Shown one piece after another: positions 22,859 through 30,468 of a stretch of DNA of 64,000 bases. Position 1 is the first letter of the stretch; each line of letters begins with the position of its first letter. Made by a program: the position numbers and the translations under genes. The notes beneath the pieces were generated by a model that saw nothing but the letters and a program-made list of their open reading frames with translations, did not search any database and was not told where the DNA came from. The stretch lies in NCBI RefSeq assembly GCF_020103695.1, contig NZ_JAHXBF010000010.1:248001-312000 (forward strand), written 5' to 3'. The DNA comes from Hyalangium versicolor (GTDB lineage Bacteria > Myxococcota > Myxococcia > Myxococcales > Myxococcaceae).

Positions 22859-22879
22859 GCCCGGGGTTCACACCCGGGC
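22859..22879. terminator. Possible bidirectional terminator hairpin
   Basis: GCCCGGG (22859-22865) pairs with CCCGGGC (22873-22879) around a seven-base loop. It lies between convergent genes and includes the sigma factor stop codon. There is no T-run, so this is tentative. Confidence 0.3.
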
Positions 22880-23716
22880 GAGCTTCTCCGGATTGAGGAT
22901 CGAGCGGATGGCGTGGATGTGCTCGCCATCCGTCTCGAAGGTCATGACATCGAAGACCGCGCCGTTGACCCGGAACACCAGCGCGGGCCACCCGTTGAAC
23001 TCGGCGAACTCCGGCTTGAGATCGAAGGGGACCTTCTTCATCAACCCGAGGAACAGGCGGGCCACGGCGTCGGCTCCCCGGACGGGGTTGAGCGACGCCC
23101 CCCGGACCTTGCCGCCACCATCGGCCCAGCTCGTCACGTCATGCGCGAGCAGGCGCTTGAGCCCGTCCAGGTCCCCGCTGAGGCAGGCGGACATGAAGCC
23201 CGTCACCAACCGCTCATGGGACTCCTTGGAGGGAGCGAAACGCGGCCGCCGCGCCCGGATGTGCTCGCGGGCCCGGTGCAGGCTCTGGCGGCAGGCGGCC
23301 TCCTCCTTGCCGACCATCTCGGAGACCTCGGAGTGGCTGTAGCCGAACACCTCGTGCAGCAAGTACACGGCGCGCTCCACGGGCGACAGGCTCTCGAGCA
23401 GCACCAGGAACGCGAGCGAGATGGACTCGGGATCCACCGGTGTGTCCGCCGTACGCATGGGCTCGGGGAGCCACGGGCCGACATACTCCTCGCGAGTGGC
23501 CTGAGCGCTCTTGAGGCGATCGAGGCACAGCCGGGTCACCACGGTGGAGAGGAACGCCCGCTCCGAGCGCACCTCCTCGCGGGGTGTGTCCTGCCAACGC
23601 AGCCAGGCCTCCTGGACGATGTCCTCGGCCTCGGCGACCGAGCCGAGCATCCGGTAGGCGATGGCGATCATCGCGGGCCGATGGGCTTCGAACGATTCCA
23701 GGGCTCCGTCGTTCAT
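22868..23716 (-). CDS. ECF41-type RNA polymerase sigma factor
   Basis: 282 residues, longer than a usual ECF sigma factor (about 180). Region 2 (AIAYRMLGSVAEAEDIVQEAWLRW) and region 4 (SPVERAVYLLHEVFGYSHSEVSEMVG) are followed by a SnoaL-like C-terminal domain of about 115 residues. That domain holds the two marks of the ECF41 group: DGGGK at residues 199-203 and an NPDKL-like NPEKL at 276-280. ECF41 factors have no separate anti-sigma protein; the C-terminal domain itself tunes activity. The ATG overlaps the stop of the upstream oxidoreductase (ATGA), so both are cotranscribed from a promoter that fits the ECF41 consensus (24912-24938). Confidence 0.93.
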   Translation of the reverse strand: MNDGALESFEAHRPAMIAIAYRMLGSVAEAEDIVQEAWLRWQDTPREEVRSERAFLSTVVTRLCLDRLKSAQATREEYVGPWLPEPMRTADTPVDPESISLAFLVLLESLSPVERAVYLLHEVFGYSHSEVSEMVGKEEAACRQSLHRAREHIRARRPRFAPSKESHERLVTGFMSACLSGDLDGLKRLLAHDVTSWADGGGKVRGASLNPVRGADAVARLFLGLMKKVPFDLKPEFAEFNGWPALVFRVNGAVFDVMTFETDGEHIHAIRSILNPEKLARV

Positions 23717-24882
23717 GCCGCCAGTGTCCCCTGCTGCGAGGCGACAGGCGAGAGCTTCCGGCCCGTCTTCCGCCAGGCAACGATGTTCAGGCCCATGCGC
23801 TCGAACCGCAGGGACGTGACCACGAAACGGCAGACCTGCTCCTTGAGCCAGGCGCCCATGCGGCCGCGGAGCAACCAGGGCGTCGGCGAGCCATCCAGGC
23901 GGTAGGGCTGGAGCAGCCCGTCACGGCGGCCCAGGCTGATGCAGAAGGCCGTGTCCACATAGTCGAAGGGCAGCGGATCCTCTCCTCGCGAGAGCCGTGC
24001 GAGGTTCTCGGCGACCTGGACTCCCATGGGAATGGCGGTCTTGCAGCCCATGAGCATGTGGGAAGGCGGCTCGACGAGCGCAGCGGCGTCCCCAATGCCG
24101 TGGATGTTCTCGTGGCCGATGACGCGCAGGCACGGATCCACCAGGAGCTGTCCGCGTGAATTCACGGGCAGCCCGGACTGACGCACCAGTTCGGGGACGA
24201 CGAAGCCACCGGCCCACAGGCACGCATCGAAGGGCAGGCTGCGATCCGCGAGTTCGACGGAGCCGGCCTGGATCCGCCGCACCTGCCCCTTCTGAACGGT
24301 GACGCCGAGCCGGCGGAGGGCTTCGTACAGGTGCGTGCGTCCGGCCTCCGAGAGATTCTCTCCCAGCTCTCCGGAGGAGAGCAGCGTGACCTGGAGGCCC
24401 GGGTGGGCCTCGGCGAGCTCGGTTGCGCCTTCGATCCCCGTGAGCCCTCCGCCGATGACGAGCAGCCGTCCACCCCGCGCAGCGATGGACGGCAGGCGCG
24501 CGGCGAGCTCTCCCGCCGAAGCAGCATCCAGCGTGAAGGCGTGCTCACGGACTCCCGGCACACTGTCCACGTCCACCCGGGAGCCGATTGCCACCACCAA
24601 CTGCTCGAAGGCGAGCCGCTCGTCGCCCAGGTAGAGGGAGCCTCGAGGGTCGATGCGGGTGACCCGGCCGATCTTCAGCGTGACACCAGAGCCCGCGAGC
24701 AGCTCCGCGAGCCCATGCTTCCCCAGATCCTGCCCGGCCGCCTGCTGGTGCAACCGGATGCGATCCACGAGGGACGGGCTCGCGCTCACCAGCGTGATGG
24801 AATCCTGCCCGCGCGTGCGCCGCGCGAGCCGAAGTGCACAGATGACGCCTGCATAACCGCCGCCCAGGATGACGATGCGCAT
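23713..24882 (-). CDS. FAD-dependent NAD(P)H oxidoreductase (NDH-2-like), ECF41 partner
   Basis: 389 residues. It has a disulphide-reductase-type fold: N-terminal FAD loop VILGGGYAGVICALRLAR, a second dinucleotide loop LLVIGGGLTGIEGATELAE (about residues 143-161) and the FAD-closing GHENIHGIGDAA near residue 270. It most resembles type II NADH dehydrogenase/quinone reductase relatives, lacking a clear C-terminal membrane anchor. AAGGAGAGG precedes the ATG. ECF41 factors are known to sit beside and control one carboxymuconolactone decarboxylase, oxidoreductase or epimerase gene; this is the oxidoreductase version. Confidence 0.88.
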   Translation of the reverse strand: MRIVILGGGYAGVICALRLARRTRGQDSITLVSASPSLVDRIRLHQQAAGQDLGKHGLAELLAGSGVTLKIGRVTRIDPRGSLYLGDERLAFEQLVVAIGSRVDVDSVPGVREHAFTLDAASAGELAARLPSIAARGGRLLVIGGGLTGIEGATELAEAHPGLQVTLLSSGELGENLSEAGRTHLYEALRRLGVTVQKGQVRRIQAGSVELADRSLPFDACLWAGGFVVPELVRQSGLPVNSRGQLLVDPCLRVIGHENIHGIGDAAALVEPPSHMLMGCKTAIPMGVQVAENLARLSRGEDPLPFDYVDTAFCISLGRRDGLLQPYRLDGSPTPWLLRGRMGAWLKEQVCRFVVTSLRFERMGLNIVAWRKTGRKLSPVASQQGTLAA

Positions 24883-24911
24883 GATGACCTCTCCTTGTTT
24901 TTCGCCCGGGA

Positions 24912-24938
24912 GACGAGCCAGCGCGCGCAGGCGTGACA
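24912..24938 (-). promoter_or_regulatory. ECF41-type promoter
   Basis: On the minus strand TGTCACG (24938-24932) and CGTC (24915-24912) are 16 bases apart. The reported ECF41 promoter is TGTCACA-N16-CGTC, so six of seven and four of four bases agree with exact spacing. It lies 30 bases before the oxidoreductase ATG and would make the oxidoreductase-sigma operon autoregulated. Confidence 0.82.
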
Positions 24939-24978
24939 GGGGTAATCAGGAACCGGAAACCCCTTGGATTTCAGCCCC

Positions 24979-25788
24979 TTAGCCCCCGTCCAAACGCCGG
25001 GGAGGATTGGGATAGATGAGGCAGAGCGCATCGAAGAGGGGCTCGCCCGGCGCGGTGTAGATGCCACTGAGGGCCCGAGCCGCCTGCGCCACCTCCGTGC
25101 CGAACGAGGGCACCAGGCAGATGTCCTCCGCCGTCTTGAACCGGCCCTTCAGGCGCTCCAGCCCCCTGCGCAGCGTGGCGATGTCCTGCTTGCCCCCTCG
25201 CACGGGCACGGAGGGCCCATTGGGGTCTCCTCCCGGCAGCTTGCCCACACTCGTGGTCAACTCGAAGCCATCCGAGCGCTGGATGATGCGCAGCTTGCCC
25301 GGAGCCACCTCCGCCAGCCACGCGCGGAAGCCATCCTCGTCCCGCAGCACGAGCCGGTAGGCCACCTCCGCGTCCGGGTGCTTCAGCCACACCTCGCCCG
25401 CCGAGTCCCTCAGCGCCTCGAGCAGCTCCGACGACTGCGCGAAGAAGGTGTCCGCATCCGGCACCACGAGCACCGCCTTGCCCTGGATGCGCTCCACCAG
25501 CCGCGCGAGCTCTCCGGGATGGACCGGCGTGAAGCGCTCGCTCCCGAGTTGGACGGACTCTCCCGCCAGTTCCAGCCGCAGCGCCTTCGCGGGGACCTCC
25601 GAGCCGTACACCTCCGCGGCCTTGACGCGGAACACCGCGTCATCCGCCACGCCCGCATCCGTGGGCTCGGCCACGAGCGGAGCCAGCGGTGCGGGGGCCA
25701 GGGATGTAAGCGGTGGGGCCGGCTTCTCCTCCTTGCACCCTACCCCTCCCAACACCACCAGGAGCAGCCCCGGCCCGAGCCGCCTCAT
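24979..25788 (-). CDS. Hypothetical lipoprotein
   Basis: 269 residues from an ATG that overlaps the stop of the upstream phosphatase gene (ATGA); a longer in-frame leader starting at 25842 is rejected because it hides the signal peptide. The signal peptide ends at lipobox GGVGC (cysteine about residue 18), followed by a Pro/Ala linker and a soluble alpha/beta domain. Internal features include a repeated basic stretch near residue 205 (RRGLERLKGRF) and VPDADTFFAQ. I do not recognise the family. Coupling to the App1-type phosphatase suggests a shared envelope function. Confidence 0.75.
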   Translation of the reverse strand: MRRLGPGLLLVVLGGVGCKEEKPAPPLTSLAPAPLAPLVAEPTDAGVADDAVFRVKAAEVYGSEVPAKALRLELAGESVQLGSERFTPVHPGELARLVERIQGKAVLVVPDADTFFAQSSELLEALRDSAGEVWLKHPDAEVAYRLVLRDEDGFRAWLAEVAPGKLRIIQRSDGFELTTSVGKLPGGDPNGPSVPVRGGKQDIATLRRGLERLKGRFKTAEDICLVPSFGTEVAQAARALSGIYTAPGEPLFDALCLIYPNPPRRLDGG

Positions 25789-26807
25789 GGAACCGTCTGC
25801 TCCGCCGTGGGCATCTTCGACGGGAACGCCGCAGCCACACACTCCGCGTTGGCCAGCCCGCTCTTCGAGGCGTGCTCGGCGGCCTCGCTCGCATCGTGGA
25901 AGAGGACCATGTCTTGGAAGCGGCTGGCATTCTCCGTCCGGCCCGCGTCGCGGATGTAGATAGCCTTCACCCGCCCGGGGAACTCCTCACGGATCTGCGC
26001 ATACACCTCCGGATCCTTCTCCCCTGAGTCTCCTACCAGCACTACCGGCTGTGAAAATTGCTGCAGCAACCGTCGAATGACGGGCTGCTTGTAATTGGAG
26101 AGAGTTCCCGGTCCCAGGTCCCTCAAGTACAACCCGAGCGGGGGAAAGCCATGCCGACCCAGGAACGAGGAGATGCGCGGCACGAACTGCACCGGCGAGC
26201 CGCTCACCAGCGCGAAGGATGGAGATGTGGGCGCCTTCAGGCATCCATAGAAAGCGGCCATCCCTGGCACCACCGCCTGCGTGTCCGAGTCCTTGAGGAA
26301 GGCCGACTCCACCAGCTTCGCCTTGTTGACGACCTGCGTAACAGCGATCGTGTCGTCGAAGTCCGAGATGACGAGAAACGGTGTAGTGTCCGCGACGACC
26401 TCGACGCGGGCCTGAGCGCTGACGCCCGCCACCTTGGCCTCGGCCAGGGCGAATCCCGCCCGGAAGGTGGAGCCCGGGGCCGGTGGCAGGGTCACCTCGA
26501 AGTTCCCATCATGCCCGCTCGTCACGATGGCAGTGACGCCCTGAAAGGAGACCTCCACCTTGGCTCCCTCCCAGTTGGGAGCGGTGAGGCGGCGCAGGTT
26601 GCGCGAGAGCACGGAGCTGCCTTGGGAGGGCGCTTCCTTCAGCACACGGCCCTGCAGAATCACCCCGTCGCCCTTCCCGAGCGCCGGGAAAAGCAAGACG
26701 GCCGGCCCCGCCAGCGTACGGGAGGCCATGAGCAGGAGGGCAACTGCAAGAAAGCGGGCAGGCGAGTTCAACGATGATCTCTCAGGGCAGGTCAGACAGA
26801 TCTGCAT
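25785..26807 (-). CDS. Exported App1-type phosphatase domain protein
   Basis: About 340 residues. The C-terminal half matches the phosphatidate phosphatase App1 catalytic domain, a HAD relative: DxDxT-type motif in ISDFDDTIAVT, then LVSGSPVQF, and VVLVGDSGEKDPEVYAQI, then KAIYIRDA. The known eukaryotic member dephosphorylates phosphatidate; a lipid or other phosphomonoester substrate is likely here. The N-terminal half holds a signal-like hydrophobic stretch (FLAVALLLMASRTLAG) and an immunoglobulin-like region. The start is uncertain: ATG 26807 has a weak ribosome site, while TTG 26771 has GAGAGA upstream and gives a cleaner signal peptide. It is divergent from the kinase gene. Confidence 0.8.
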   Translation of the reverse strand: MQICLTCPERSSLNSPARFLAVALLLMASRTLAGPAVLLFPALGKGDGVILQGRVLKEAPSQGSSVLSRNLRRLTAPNWEGAKVEVSFQGVTAIVTSGHDGNFEVTLPPAPGSTFRAGFALAEAKVAGVSAQARVEVVADTTPFLVISDFDDTIAVTQVVNKAKLVESAFLKDSDTQAVVPGMAAFYGCLKAPTSPSFALVSGSPVQFVPRISSFLGRHGFPPLGLYLRDLGPGTLSNYKQPVIRRLLQQFSQPVVLVGDSGEKDPEVYAQIREEFPGRVKAIYIRDAGRTENASRFQDMVLFHDASEAAEHASKSGLANAECVAAAFPSKMPTAEQTVP

Positions 26808-26844
26808 GATAGCTTCTGGCGGCTCCTCATGAGGACATGCAGTG

Positions 26845-29094
26845 ATGCAAGCGCTGCAAGGGGCCTGCCCGAAAGGAGCCAAGACGAACGTGCAGCTGTC
26901 GGCCGAGGGCCATGAGTTCGGCAAGTACCTGCTGCTCGACCGCATCGCGGTGGGCGGGATGTCGGAGCTCTATCTCGCGCGCATGACGGCCGCGGCGGGT
27001 GTCACCAAGCAGGTGGTCATCAAGAAGATCCTACCGCACTACGCCGACAACGCCTCCTTCGTCTCCATGTTCATCAACGAGGCGCGCATCGCGGTGGGGC
27101 TGAACCACGGCAACATCGCCCACGTGTTCGACTTCGGCGAGGTGGACGGCGAGTTCTACCTGGCCATGGAGTGGGTGCACGGCCAGCCGCTGTCCACGGT
27201 GCTGCGCCGCGCGCGAGAGAAGGACCTGGAGGCGCTGCCGGTGCCGCTGGCGCTGCTGGCCGCCACGCAGATGCTCCAAGGCCTGGCGTACGCGCATAAC
27301 CGGCTGGATGACAGCGGGCGCCCGCTCAACATCGTCCACCGGGACGTCAGCCCGCAGAACGTGCTGCTGGGCTACGAGGGCCAGGTGAAGTTGGTGGACT
27401 TCGGCATCGCCCGGGCGCGGCTGGCCAGCCGGATGGATGCCGCGGCCACGGCGACCCAGGGCAAGTACCTCTACTTCGCGCCGGAGCAGGCCCAGGGCCG
27501 CGAGCTGGATGCGCGTGCGGACATCTTCGCCGCGGGCGTGGTGCTGTACGAGATGCTCTGTGGGAGGCTCCCCTGGCAGGGCGAGCGGATGGAGGTGCTC
27601 CAGCGCATCGCCCGGGGTGACTTCCCTTCCCCGCGCACCCTCAACCCGCGCGTGCCCCCGGAGCTGGAGCGCATCCTGCTCACCGCGATGGCGGTGGATC
27701 GCGATCGGCGCTACCCCTCGGCGGAGGCCTTTGGCGAGGCGCTCGGGACGTACCTGCACACGGCCCTGCCGGACTTTCCGCCCAGCGCCCTGGCCCACTT
27801 CATGGGCTACCTCTTCGAGTCCGAGCTGGTGGCCGAAGGGCGTCCGGTGCGGCTGCCGCCAGACTTCCTGAGCCAGCTGGACCTGTGGAGCAAGGAACTG
27901 CCGCAGGAGCCCGTGCGGCTGCGCGCGCCCTCGTATGTGCGACTCCCCGCGGCATCACCGCCCCCGGAGGAGCTGCCGGAGCCTCCGCGCAGGTGGCTGT
28001 CTCCCCTGTCCTGGGTGCTGTTCGGCGCACCGGTGCTGGCGGCGCTGCTGGCCGCCGTGCTGATCGTCTCGGACGAGACCGACAAGACGTTCTCTGTGGA
28101 GCTCACCTCCACGCCCCAGGGCGCCTCTGTCTGGGTGGACGGACAGCTGCTGATGGACCACACGCCCACGCTCATCCCCCTCTCGGTGGACCGCGAACAC
28201 CTGATCGAGGTGCACGCCATCGGCATGGAGTCCTGGAGCCAGCGTGTCCGGGCGGATGAGGGCGCCACCCTGGCCGTCCGCGCCGAGCTGCTCCCCGCCC
28301 GCCCGCGTACGGCCGCCCAGTCCCGTGCGGGCACCTCCGCCCAGGCTTCGGCTTCCCAGGTGCCCCTCGAGGGCCGCTTCCCACTGCAGGCCTTCGAGCT
28401 GAGGCCCTCGCAGCACACCATCCTGGTGCCACCCTCGGGCGCGGCGCGCCTGCGGCTGGATCCCTCGCGCACGTACTCGCTGAGCAGCGAGGACACAGTG
28501 GGAGCAAGTTCCAGCGCCGGTGGCGCCCTCGGCACGGTCGTCTACTTCCTGGAGGGAGGCCCAGGACTGCCGGCGCGGGCCTCCTTCGGCCTGCTGGGGC
28601 CCGAGGAACTGCAGGTCAGCAACGCGTTCGCGCTCTACCTCTTCGTGCCAGAACAGCCTCGGCAGGGCAGCTCGGGCAGCCTCCGGGTGCACGTGCGGGA
28701 GACGCGCAGCGGCACCGGCGCCACCGTCATGGTCGACGCACGGCAGCATGCGCTCACCCCGCGTCCCGATCAGAGCTTTACCCTGCACGGCCTGGATGCC
28801 GGCACCACCTACGAGGTCCGCCTCCGAGACACCGCCCGCCCCGCGCGGACCCGGGGCGTCCAGGGCGAGGCCGTGGGCCGGGTCCTCGTCCTTCAGGACG
28901 GAGGCTGCGGCGCCCAGGCCGGCGGGCCCTGGAAGCGCGGCGCGGCCCGGATCGTCGAAACCGGCCGCCCCACCCGCTTCGCCGGGGTGTCCTCGCTGCG
29001 CTTCACCTTCCCGGACGATGACCTGGAGGACAATGCGGGCGCACTCTCGGTGGAGGTGGTCCCGGTGGCCGGTACCCGGCCCTCGGGCTGCTGA
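26845..29094 (+). CDS. Membrane-anchored Ser/Thr protein kinase with PEGA-like domain
   Basis: 749 residues from ATG 26845 (GAGGA upstream). GTG 26842 and GTG 26890 (with AAAGGAGCC) are alternatives; the last starts just before the conserved FGKYLLLDRI. The kinase domain (about 25-310) has the glycine loop IAVGGMSELYLAR, lysine K60, HRDVSPQN with catalytic D167, DFG D185 and the APE motif, all intact, so it should be active. After a Pro-rich juxtamembrane stretch comes one membrane helix (about 388-409). The outside part begins with a PEGA-like repeat (VELTSTPQGASVWVDGQLL) and continues with a beta-rich sensor region of about 270 residues and a lone cysteine pair near the end. Targets are unknown. 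Confidence 0.9.
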   Translation: MQALQGACPKGAKTNVQLSAEGHEFGKYLLLDRIAVGGMSELYLARMTAAAGVTKQVVIKKILPHYADNASFVSMFINEARIAVGLNHGNIAHVFDFGEVDGEFYLAMEWVHGQPLSTVLRRAREKDLEALPVPLALLAATQMLQGLAYAHNRLDDSGRPLNIVHRDVSPQNVLLGYEGQVKLVDFGIARARLASRMDAAATATQGKYLYFAPEQAQGRELDARADIFAAGVVLYEMLCGRLPWQGERMEVLQRIARGDFPSPRTLNPRVPPELERILLTAMAVDRDRRYPSAEAFGEALGTYLHTALPDFPPSALAHFMGYLFESELVAEGRPVRLPPDFLSQLDLWSKELPQEPVRLRAPSYVRLPAASPPPEELPEPPRRWLSPLSWVLFGAPVLAALLAAVLIVSDETDKTFSVELTSTPQGASVWVDGQLLMDHTPTLIPLSVDREHLIEVHAIGMESWSQRVRADEGATLAVRAELLPARPRTAAQSRAGTSAQASASQVPLEGRFPLQAFELRPSQHTILVPPSGAARLRLDPSRTYSLSSEDTVGASSSAGGALGTVVYFLEGGPGLPARASFGLLGPEELQVSNAFALYLFVPEQPRQGSSGSLRVHVRETRSGTGATVMVDARQHALTPRPDQSFTLHGLDAGTTYEVRLRDTARPARTRGVQGEAVGRVLVLQDGGCGAQAGGPWKRGAARIVETGRPTRFAGVSSLRFTFPDDDLEDNAGALSVEVVPVAGTRPSGC

Positions 29095-29511: not shown

Positions 29512-30468
29512 ATGCCAGAAGGACTCCAGCTCGCGGTCGGTGACCGGGTGGTGTACCCCAACCAGGGGGTCTGCCTCGTCTCGGCCATCGATGTGAAGGA
29601 GGTGGCCGGTCAGAAGCTGACCTTCGTCACCATGCGCCGTGAAGAAGATGGTGCCGTGGTGATGGTGCCGCAGGCCAAGGTGCAGACCATTGGCGTGCGC
29701 AAGGTGGCTACGCCCGAGGAGGTGGAACAGATCTACTCGTTCCTCCGCTCGGACAGTGACAAGGCCGACCTCGATTGGAAGCAGCGGGCCCGCACGAACC
29801 TGGACCGGATGACGCAGGGCGGAATCCTGGGTCTGGCCGAGGTGGTGAAGGGCCTGCAGGTGCTCAGTGAATTGCGGCCGCTGCCCACCAAGGAGCGCGA
29901 GCTGTACGACAACGCCCGGCACCTGCTGGTGTCCGAGGTGTCCGCCGCGCTGAACATCCCCGAGGTCAACGCCGAGGACTCGATCGACATCGTCCTCTTC
30001 CCGCCCGGCCGCGAGCGCCCCAAGCGCACGGTGGCCGAGTTCAAGCCGCGCGGGGAGGACGACGAGGATCTGGGGCTGGACGGCGGGTTGCTGGGGCTGG
30101 ACGGCGAGCTGGATCTGCCCCCGGATGAAGAGGAGGCACCGCCCGAGGAGGAGGAGTCCTCTGGCGAAGAGGCGGAGGCCTCCGGCGAGGACGAGGAGGA
30201 GGCGCCCAAGGCGGCTCGCAAGAAGACCGCGAAGGCGGAGGGCGAGCCGGACGAGGGCGCGGAGGGAGCGGAGGGCGAGCCTCCGAAGCGCAAGCGGGGC
30301 CGTCCGCCCAAGCCGAAGCCCGAGGGTGAGGCCGCGGCGGCGCCAGCGGTGCCGAAGAAGCGAGGCCGTCCGCCCAAGCCGAAGCCCGAGGGTGAGGCCG
30401 CGGCGCCGGCGGCTCCGAAGAAGCGGGGCCGTCCGCCGAAGAAGAAGCCCGAGGGAGAGACCGAGTAG
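29512..30468 (+). CDS. carD: CarD, global transcription regulator with AT-hooks
   Basis: 318 residues, close to the known Myxococcus CarD. The N-terminal domain (residues 1 to about 160, GDRVVYPNQGVCLVSAID onward) is the RNA polymerase beta-interacting module shared with CdnL and TRCF. It is followed by a very acidic stretch (about 180-250) and a C-terminal HMGA-like region with three AT-hooks (RGRPPK at 262, 284 and 305) inside repeated KPKPEGEAA units. CarD with CarG is needed for activation of several ECF-sigma-dependent promoters, carotenogenesis and development in Myxococcus. GAGGGGG precedes the ATG. Its combination of acidic region and AT-hooks is known only in myxobacteria. Confidence 0.96.
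   Translation: MPEGLQLAVGDRVVYPNQGVCLVSAIDVKEVAGQKLTFVTMRREEDGAVVMVPQAKVQTIGVRKVATPEEVEQIYSFLRSDSDKADLDWKQRARTNLDRMTQGGILGLAEVVKGLQVLSELRPLPTKERELYDNARHLLVSEVSAALNIPEVNAEDSIDIVLFPPGRERPKRTVAEFKPRGEDDEDLGLDGGLLGLDGELDLPPDEEEAPPEEEESSGEEAEASGEDEEEAPKAARKKTAKAEGEPDEGAEGAEGEPPKRKRGRPPKPKPEGEAAAAPAVPKKRGRPPKPKPEGEAAAPAAPKKRGRPPKKKPEGETE

Follow-up and report, generated by a model that had tools for sequence, protein, structure and literature searches.

A two-gene module of an ECF41-type sigma factor and an NDH-2-fold flavoenzyme behind a conserved predicted promoter in Hyalangium versicolor

Introduction

What switches on an ECF41 sigma factor, and what does the enzyme encoded beside it do? ECF41 is a widespread group, and for some of its members promoter recognition, target genes, and both the inhibitory and the required parts of a C-terminal tail have been shown (Wecke et al., 2012, PMC3426412). 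No phenotype was found for the ECF41 systems examined there, and the literature consulted names no inducer for any member. A first-pass annotation of the locus described here had likewise stated that no natural ECF41 signal is known, in agreement with these sources. According to the reviews, the ECF41 tail probably binds a ligand, and only some members have been linked to oxidative stress (PMC8999054, PMC8103513).

We analysed a 64,000-nt stretch (the window) of the genome of the myxobacterium Hyalangium versicolor (13.6 Mb; 13.56 Mb was searched), in which an ECF41-type gene directly follows a gene for a flavoenzyme. An operon with one enzyme and a letter-conserved promoter would be a clean test bed for finding the inducer of this widespread group: in vitro screening would show which substrates the enzyme accepts, and every hit could then be tried as an inducer of a reporter.

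Results

An overlapping gene pair with an ECF41-type sigma factor

The coordinates that the first-pass annotation had given for the two genes and their promoter are correct, as judged from the open reading frames and a re-reading of the sequence (Table 1). The partner COE gene, encoding the oxidoreductase, lies directly upstream of the sigma factor gene and overlaps it. The overlapping ATGA, which is common to all seven orthologous pairs described below, agrees at the sequence level with the translational coupling proposed earlier. ECF41 genes are characterised by the lack of an adjacent anti-sigma factor gene; here, the gene downstream of the sigma factor gene is convergent. The upstream neighbour (24979-25842), on the same strand as the pair, ends 40 nt 5´ of the -35 element and gave no match in a scan with Pfam and NCBIfam profiles. 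Elsewhere in the window, we noted genes for a Ser/Thr protein kinase (26842-29094, forward strand; a weak PEGA match falls below the cut-off) and for a CarD protein (29512-30468, forward strand) with CarD_TRCF_RID and CarD_C domains, a long acidic stretch, and repeated, AT-hook-like KKRGRPPK motifs. The latter presumably resembles the myxobacterial CarD type.

Table 1. Positions of genes and sequence elements at the locus, in window coordinates.
Feature	Position	Strand	Basis or detail
ECF41-group sigma factor gene, SigJ/SigX4 type	22868-23716	-	282 aa; family models, fold
C-terminal tail, residues 164-282, NTF2/SnoaL-like	22871-23227	-	model; SnoaL_2 below threshold
NPEKL motif, residues 275-279	22880-22894	-	sequence
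DGGGK motif, residues 199-203	23108-23122	-	sequence
WLPEP motif, sigma2-sigma4 linker, residues 82-86	23459-23473	-	sequence
ATGA overlap, 4 nt (oxidoreductase stop, sigma factor start)	23713-23716	-	sequence
FAD/NAD(P)H-dependent oxidoreductase gene (Pyr_redox_2), NDH-2 fold	23713-24882	-	389 aa
Codon of Cys280, aligned with the first Ala of AQxAxQ	24043-24045	-	alignment
AAGGAG, likely ribosome-binding site, 8 nt 5´ of the oxidoreductase ATG	24891-24896	-	sequence
CGTC, predicted -10 element	24912-24915	-	sequence, 7/7 orthologues
TGTCACG, predicted -35 element	24932-24938	-	sequence, 7/7 orthologues
Conserved block TAAGGGGCTGAAATCCAAGGGGTTTCCGGTTCC, 10-43 nt 5´ of the -35 element	24949-24981	-	conservation, profiles

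The assignment of the sigma factor to ECF41 was borne out. The protein scored 344.9 bits against TIGR02957 (SigX4; cut-off 323.25) and 325.5 bits against PRK09636 (SigJ; cut-off 271), two NCBIfam models that we take as stand-ins for ECF41. It also carries DGGGK and NPEKL, which we assume to be conserved motifs of the ECF41 tail. Sigma70_r2 (58.3 bits) and Sigma70_r4_2 (50.5 bits) both exceed their Pfam cut-offs, and the linker between these regions contains WLPEP, the defining motif of the group (Wecke et al., 2012, PMC3426412).

Behind the sigma domains is an extension of about 119 residues. Pfam SnoaL_2 reached only 20.2 bits on this tail, below its cut-off of 27, and the fold was therefore tested with a structure model. 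In the AlphaFold2 model (mean pLDDT 85.8) the tail is NTF2-like, with helices at residues 164-180, 183-189, and 215-228, and strands at 190-199, 233-240, 243-250, 253-262, and 267-273. The SnoaL-like tail proposed earlier is thus upheld by its motifs and by the model, with the Pfam match remaining below threshold. The best fold matches of the whole chain are SigJ (5xe7) and then SigG1 (7qh5); those of the tail alone are ketosteroid isomerases and limonene epoxide hydrolases. In two other ECF41 members the tail acts as a fused inhibitor whose first part is required for activity: truncation at 204 and 206 made the proteins about 20- and 120-fold more active, and truncation at 167 and 169 left them dead (Wecke et al., 2012, PMC3426412).

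The pair and its predicted promoter recur together

The predicted promoter TGTCACG-N16-CGTC (24938-24912, reverse strand) ends 29 nt 5´ of the oxidoreductase ATG. As the first-pass annotation held, it is nearly the published ECF41 consensus, TGTCACA-n16-CGTC, from which it departs only in the last letter of the -35 element (G for A); TGTCACG sites are also present in Table 5 of the same study (Wecke et al., 2012, PMC3426412). Across both strands of the 13.56-Mb genome, TGTCACG and CGTC separated by 15-17 nt gave 13 matches, compared with 15 in a reversed control, and a looser TGTCACN form with the same spacers gave 55 in each. From the 13 matches, the expected frequency is about 5e-7 for each position on each strand, and the chance of a match in the roughly 120 nt before the oxidoreductase gene is below 1e-4. 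The motif by itself is therefore uninformative genome-wide, and the search for further copies, which had been suggested as a check, allowed no further targets to be named. One looser match lies about 0.6 kb behind a paralogous ECF41 gene (at C10) and does not front a CMD gene.

The evidence for the promoter is positional and comparative. We surveyed 145 genomes of the order and found a close oxidoreductase (E <= 1e-40) in seven, the window's own included, with a sigma factor gene directly behind it every time; ECF41-like sigma factors are commoner, being present in 86 of the 145 at E <= 1e-30. At all seven pairs the heptamer, the 16-nt spacer, and CGTC are invariant and located 24-29 nt before the ATG, and the non-coding sequence further upstream mostly differs. 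The absence of the motif from orthologous loci, which had been raised as grounds against the module, is not seen. When nine flanking proteins of the window were sought in 18-kb stretches of the six other loci, five had matches at one locus (sister genome G081) and none had a match at the remaining five. Thus, the pair and its predicted promoter persist in changing surroundings, by transfer or by rearrangement, and it is in this sense that the description "self-contained" holds. Because the same elements front every pair, five of the six others in unrelated surroundings, the promoter match is, on comparative grounds, very unlikely to be an accident. In G081 (locus L108), about 4 kb separates the pair from a shared upstream gene, compared with 96 nt in the window, owing either to an insertion there or to a deletion in the window.

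The association extends beyond the order. A scan of named genomes gave nine oxidoreductase loci, one of which repeats an orthologue (Archangium lansinium) and one of which is on a contig that ends too early. An ECF41 gene directly follows the oxidoreductase gene in all eight sufficiently long loci, counting the repeat, and the taxa comprise Myxococcota, Chloroflexi, a cyanobacterium (Pleurocapsa), and Actinobacteria. Six of the eight have the strict promoter motif, L099 has it with one mismatch, and L105 has no strict motif. We then counted 51 distinct family loci, drawn from the matches examined (20 of 21, 30 of those listed, and 4 of 4) and leaving out eight repeats (with the window copy counted once), one partial gene, and seven ordinary NDH-2-like genes. 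ECF41 is found within the examined flank in 45 of these loci, with the oxidoreductase first in 31, ECF41 first in 11, and the genes on opposite strands in three. The examined flank of the other six has no ECF41, so the link is not absolute. The oxidoreductase is a member of a cross-phylum family linked to ECF41.

A second element is conserved upstream of the predicted promoter, overlapping, in this genome, the stop codon of the upstream gene. The block is recognisable at all seven pairs (the window and L070-L075). Windowed conservation within it is 0.61-0.68, for a null with a 95% point of 0.55 and a maximum of 0.595, and falls to 0.54-0.57 between the block and the -35 element; more distal single windows, at -128 and -80, also score 0.60 and 0.57. 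Leave-one-out profiles placed the block at the right position and strand in 7/7 loci, with E-values per 4-kb locus from 0.0005 to 0.49 that are weak singly for L073 (0.49) and L074 (0.12). Elsewhere in the genome no site is within two mismatches, and two are at three. A possible inverted repeat in the block (GAAATCC-AAG-GGGTTTC in the window) is not conserved in L074 or L075, and we therefore make no claim of an operator. The block may be a second promoter or an operator, and it suggests a further regulatory input beyond a simple feedback loop.

The partner enzyme has the NDH-2 fold and an altered acceptor motif

By both sequence and fold, the nearest solved relatives of the oxidoreductase are NDH-2 chains. 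Its model (mean pLDDT 88.3) matches NDH-2 over residues 1-360 with Z scores of 42-44 and an rmsd of 2.0-2.3 A. Two dinucleotide-binding domains are present with their glycine motifs kept, and, towards the C-terminus, where NDH-2 enzymes have two amphipathic membrane helices, a helix spans residues 340-362, with nothing confident after 370. Typical NDH-2 enzymes carry the quinone motif AQxAxQ or one of its forms AQxAxR and APxAxQ. The flavin ring is bound by the main chain of the first two motif residues (PMC5299459), and the quinone head is in packing contact with the first Gln of the motif (PMC6167311). The aligned letters in the window protein are CKTAIP, and Cys280 would, from this alignment, lie at the flavin. 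A Cys at this first position is found in 48 of the 51 family loci and in none of the seven ordinary NDH-2-like genes recovered by the same search in the same genomes, and neither AQxAxQ nor its variants stand at the aligned place in any of the 51. Two other residues, Cys221 and Cys314, are invariant in 14 closer sequences and present in 19/51 and 35/51 of the wider set, respectively. With the quinone motif replaced throughout the family, "NDH-2-like", the term used by the first-pass annotation, describes the fold correctly and is doubtful as a statement of function. For an inducer screen based on the enzyme, the Cys280 signature could confine the candidates to thiol-reactive or oxidising molecules. 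A search of the open literature, covering titles and the openings of abstracts, returned no description of a Cys-type ECF41 oxidoreductase, which is no proof of absence; as far as such searches tell, neither the Cys-for-Ala exchange across the partner family nor the upstream block is described in the open papers covered.

We also asked how partner types are distributed over the sigma factors. On a tree of 124 ECF41-like proteins (without L098, a repeat of L107, and short sigma matches), partner type, labelled as oxidoreductase, CMD, amine-oxidase-like, NmrA-like, DoxX-like, or none, needs 18 changes, compared with 47.8 when shuffled. On a tree of a wider, thinned set of 93, from which rows below 40% identity and one CMD row in two were also removed, and in which 27 added rows were chosen for having an oxidoreductase and so carry that label by construction, the oxidoreductase label needs 5 changes versus 30.7. 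Partner types were called with profiles, a procedure that breaks down when the sigma reading frame extends further upstream; Pfam confirmed the families CMD, DoxX_2, Amino_oxidase, and NAD_binding_10/NmrA on single examples. The clustering fits co-inheritance of matched pairs and is no proof of a shared ligand.

Several neighbourhoods are of interest in their own right. Amine-oxidase-like flavoproteins are encoded beside the ECF41-like genes at L219, L221, and L225, and DoxX_2 membrane proteins at L191, L201, and L216. The one other whole-length ECF41 family-model match in the H. versicolor genome (G000:C10:161370-162206, L010), below the family cut-off, is transcribed divergently from a gene of the CMD/AhpD type whose product has a CxxC motif, and the 93-nt gap between the two contains no strict ECF41 motif. 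Seven myxobacterial ECF41 factors (L115-L121) form a clade close to those linked to oxidoreductases, and the profiles applied here detect no CMD, oxidoreductase, or epimerase partner for them. The gene that follows at L116, L118, L119, and L121 codes for a related protein that looks like a membrane protein, of which the L119 example, the sole one scanned, has no Pfam match; at L115, L118, L119, and L120, the motif stands before the sigma factor gene itself.

Discussion

Considering the two genes and their overlap, the conservation of the promoter, the folds of tail and oxidoreductase, and the altered acceptor motif, all of which we observed, we think it very probable that the pair is a two-gene ECF41 operon with a promoter for its own sigma factor, positive feedback, a ligand-gated tail, and an enzyme acting on the inducer. 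RNA polymerase carrying this sigma factor would recognise TGTCACG-N16-CGTC and transcribe the oxidoreductase gene and then the sigma factor gene, giving positive feedback; autoregulation is suggested here by the promoter fronting what looks like an operon that includes the sigma factor gene. The NTF2/SnoaL-like tail would keep the sigma factor at low activity until the tail is repositioned by a small molecule, which is probably hydrophobic and would sit in the tail pocket; the first part of the tail, to about DGGGK, would be needed for activity and the remainder inhibitory. The induced flavoenzyme would oxidise NAD(P)H, and its electron acceptor is probably something other than the usual respiratory quinone. 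Most likely, it would act on the inducing molecule or a relative, such that the loop shuts itself off. We infer both the ligand gating of the tail and the removal of the signal by the enzyme.

The first-pass annotation had suggested that the oxidoreductase may be the part that senses the signal, in which case it would bind or reduce the molecule and inform the sigma factor by protein contact. The pairing of these genes across phyla and the way partner types group on the sigma tree are what such a sensor would lead one to expect, but the shared ancestry of a co-inherited operon accounts for the grouping equally well, and this one sigma group has partner enzymes whose folds are unrelated. Moreover, when the CMD partner YdfG was expressed together with Ecf41Bli, activity at the promoter did not change (Wecke et al., 2012, PMC3426412). 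In a heterologous host that has no other ECF41 parts, regulation is explained by the tail by itself, and the authors favour the tail. We consider an oxidoreductase sensor very unlikely, and this part of the suggestion is unsupported.

The enzyme might instead be an ordinary respiratory NDH-2 that is under ECF41 control by happenstance. Both the nearest solved relatives and the C-terminal helix in the model are in keeping with this, but the quinone motif differs at all 51 family loci, and the Cys at its first position separates 48 of them from the seven ordinary NDH-2-like genes, making this explanation distinctly unlikely. It is more improbable still that the promoter motif is a chance match and that the pair is transcribed from another promoter: genome-wide, the pattern does not exceed its reversed controls, yet heptamer, spacer, and CGTC are invariant before seven of seven pairs amid mostly differing non-coding sequence, and we give this reading hardly any credence.

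Beyond the operon model, the observations allow a broader and more speculative reading, which, taken whole, we regard as rather unlikely. The ECF41-linked oxidoreductases could be a separate family in which the acceptor site has been rebuilt around a Cys next to the flavin, yielding a thiol-flavin reductase for an oxidant, a disulfide, or an electrophile and not for a respiratory quinone. If the paired sigma tail bound the same molecule, the class of ECF41 signal could be read from the reaction type of the partner enzyme (Cys-flavin reductase, AhpD-like CMD with CxxC, or NmrA-type reductase), and the second upstream element would feed another regulator into the loop.

How does the locus compare with known systems? 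The arrangement of a COE gene followed by the ECF gene (>COE> >ECF>) was reported for 107 of 373 ECF41 loci, and in 97 the promoter precedes the COE gene (Wecke et al., 2012, PMC3426412). The gene order and promoter of this module were already described in 2012, and the locus is a well-supported further example. It shares with those loci the sigma2 and sigma4 regions with WLPEP and a regulatory tail of about 100 residues, as well as an oxidoreductase partner upstream in the same orientation with a promoter before the partner only. It differs in the -35 element, which ends in G where the consensus has A, in its partner, an NDH-2-fold flavoenzyme whereas the two experimentally studied systems have CMD partners, and in the further conserved block upstream. 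Among sigma factors of known structure, SigJ of M. tuberculosis (5xe7) is the best whole-length match by sequence and fold, with 35% identity in the Foldseek alignment. SigG1 of Streptomyces tsukubaensis (7qh5), the second-best fold, likewise has a SnoaL_2 tail, but belongs to another group, ECF56, and is only 25-26% identical. Finally, the oxidoreductase has its fold in common with the NDH-2 enzymes of Caldalkalibacillus thermarum (4nwz) and S. aureus (5na1) and with B. subtilis YjlD, whereas their AQxAxQ is replaced by C-K-T-A-I-P.
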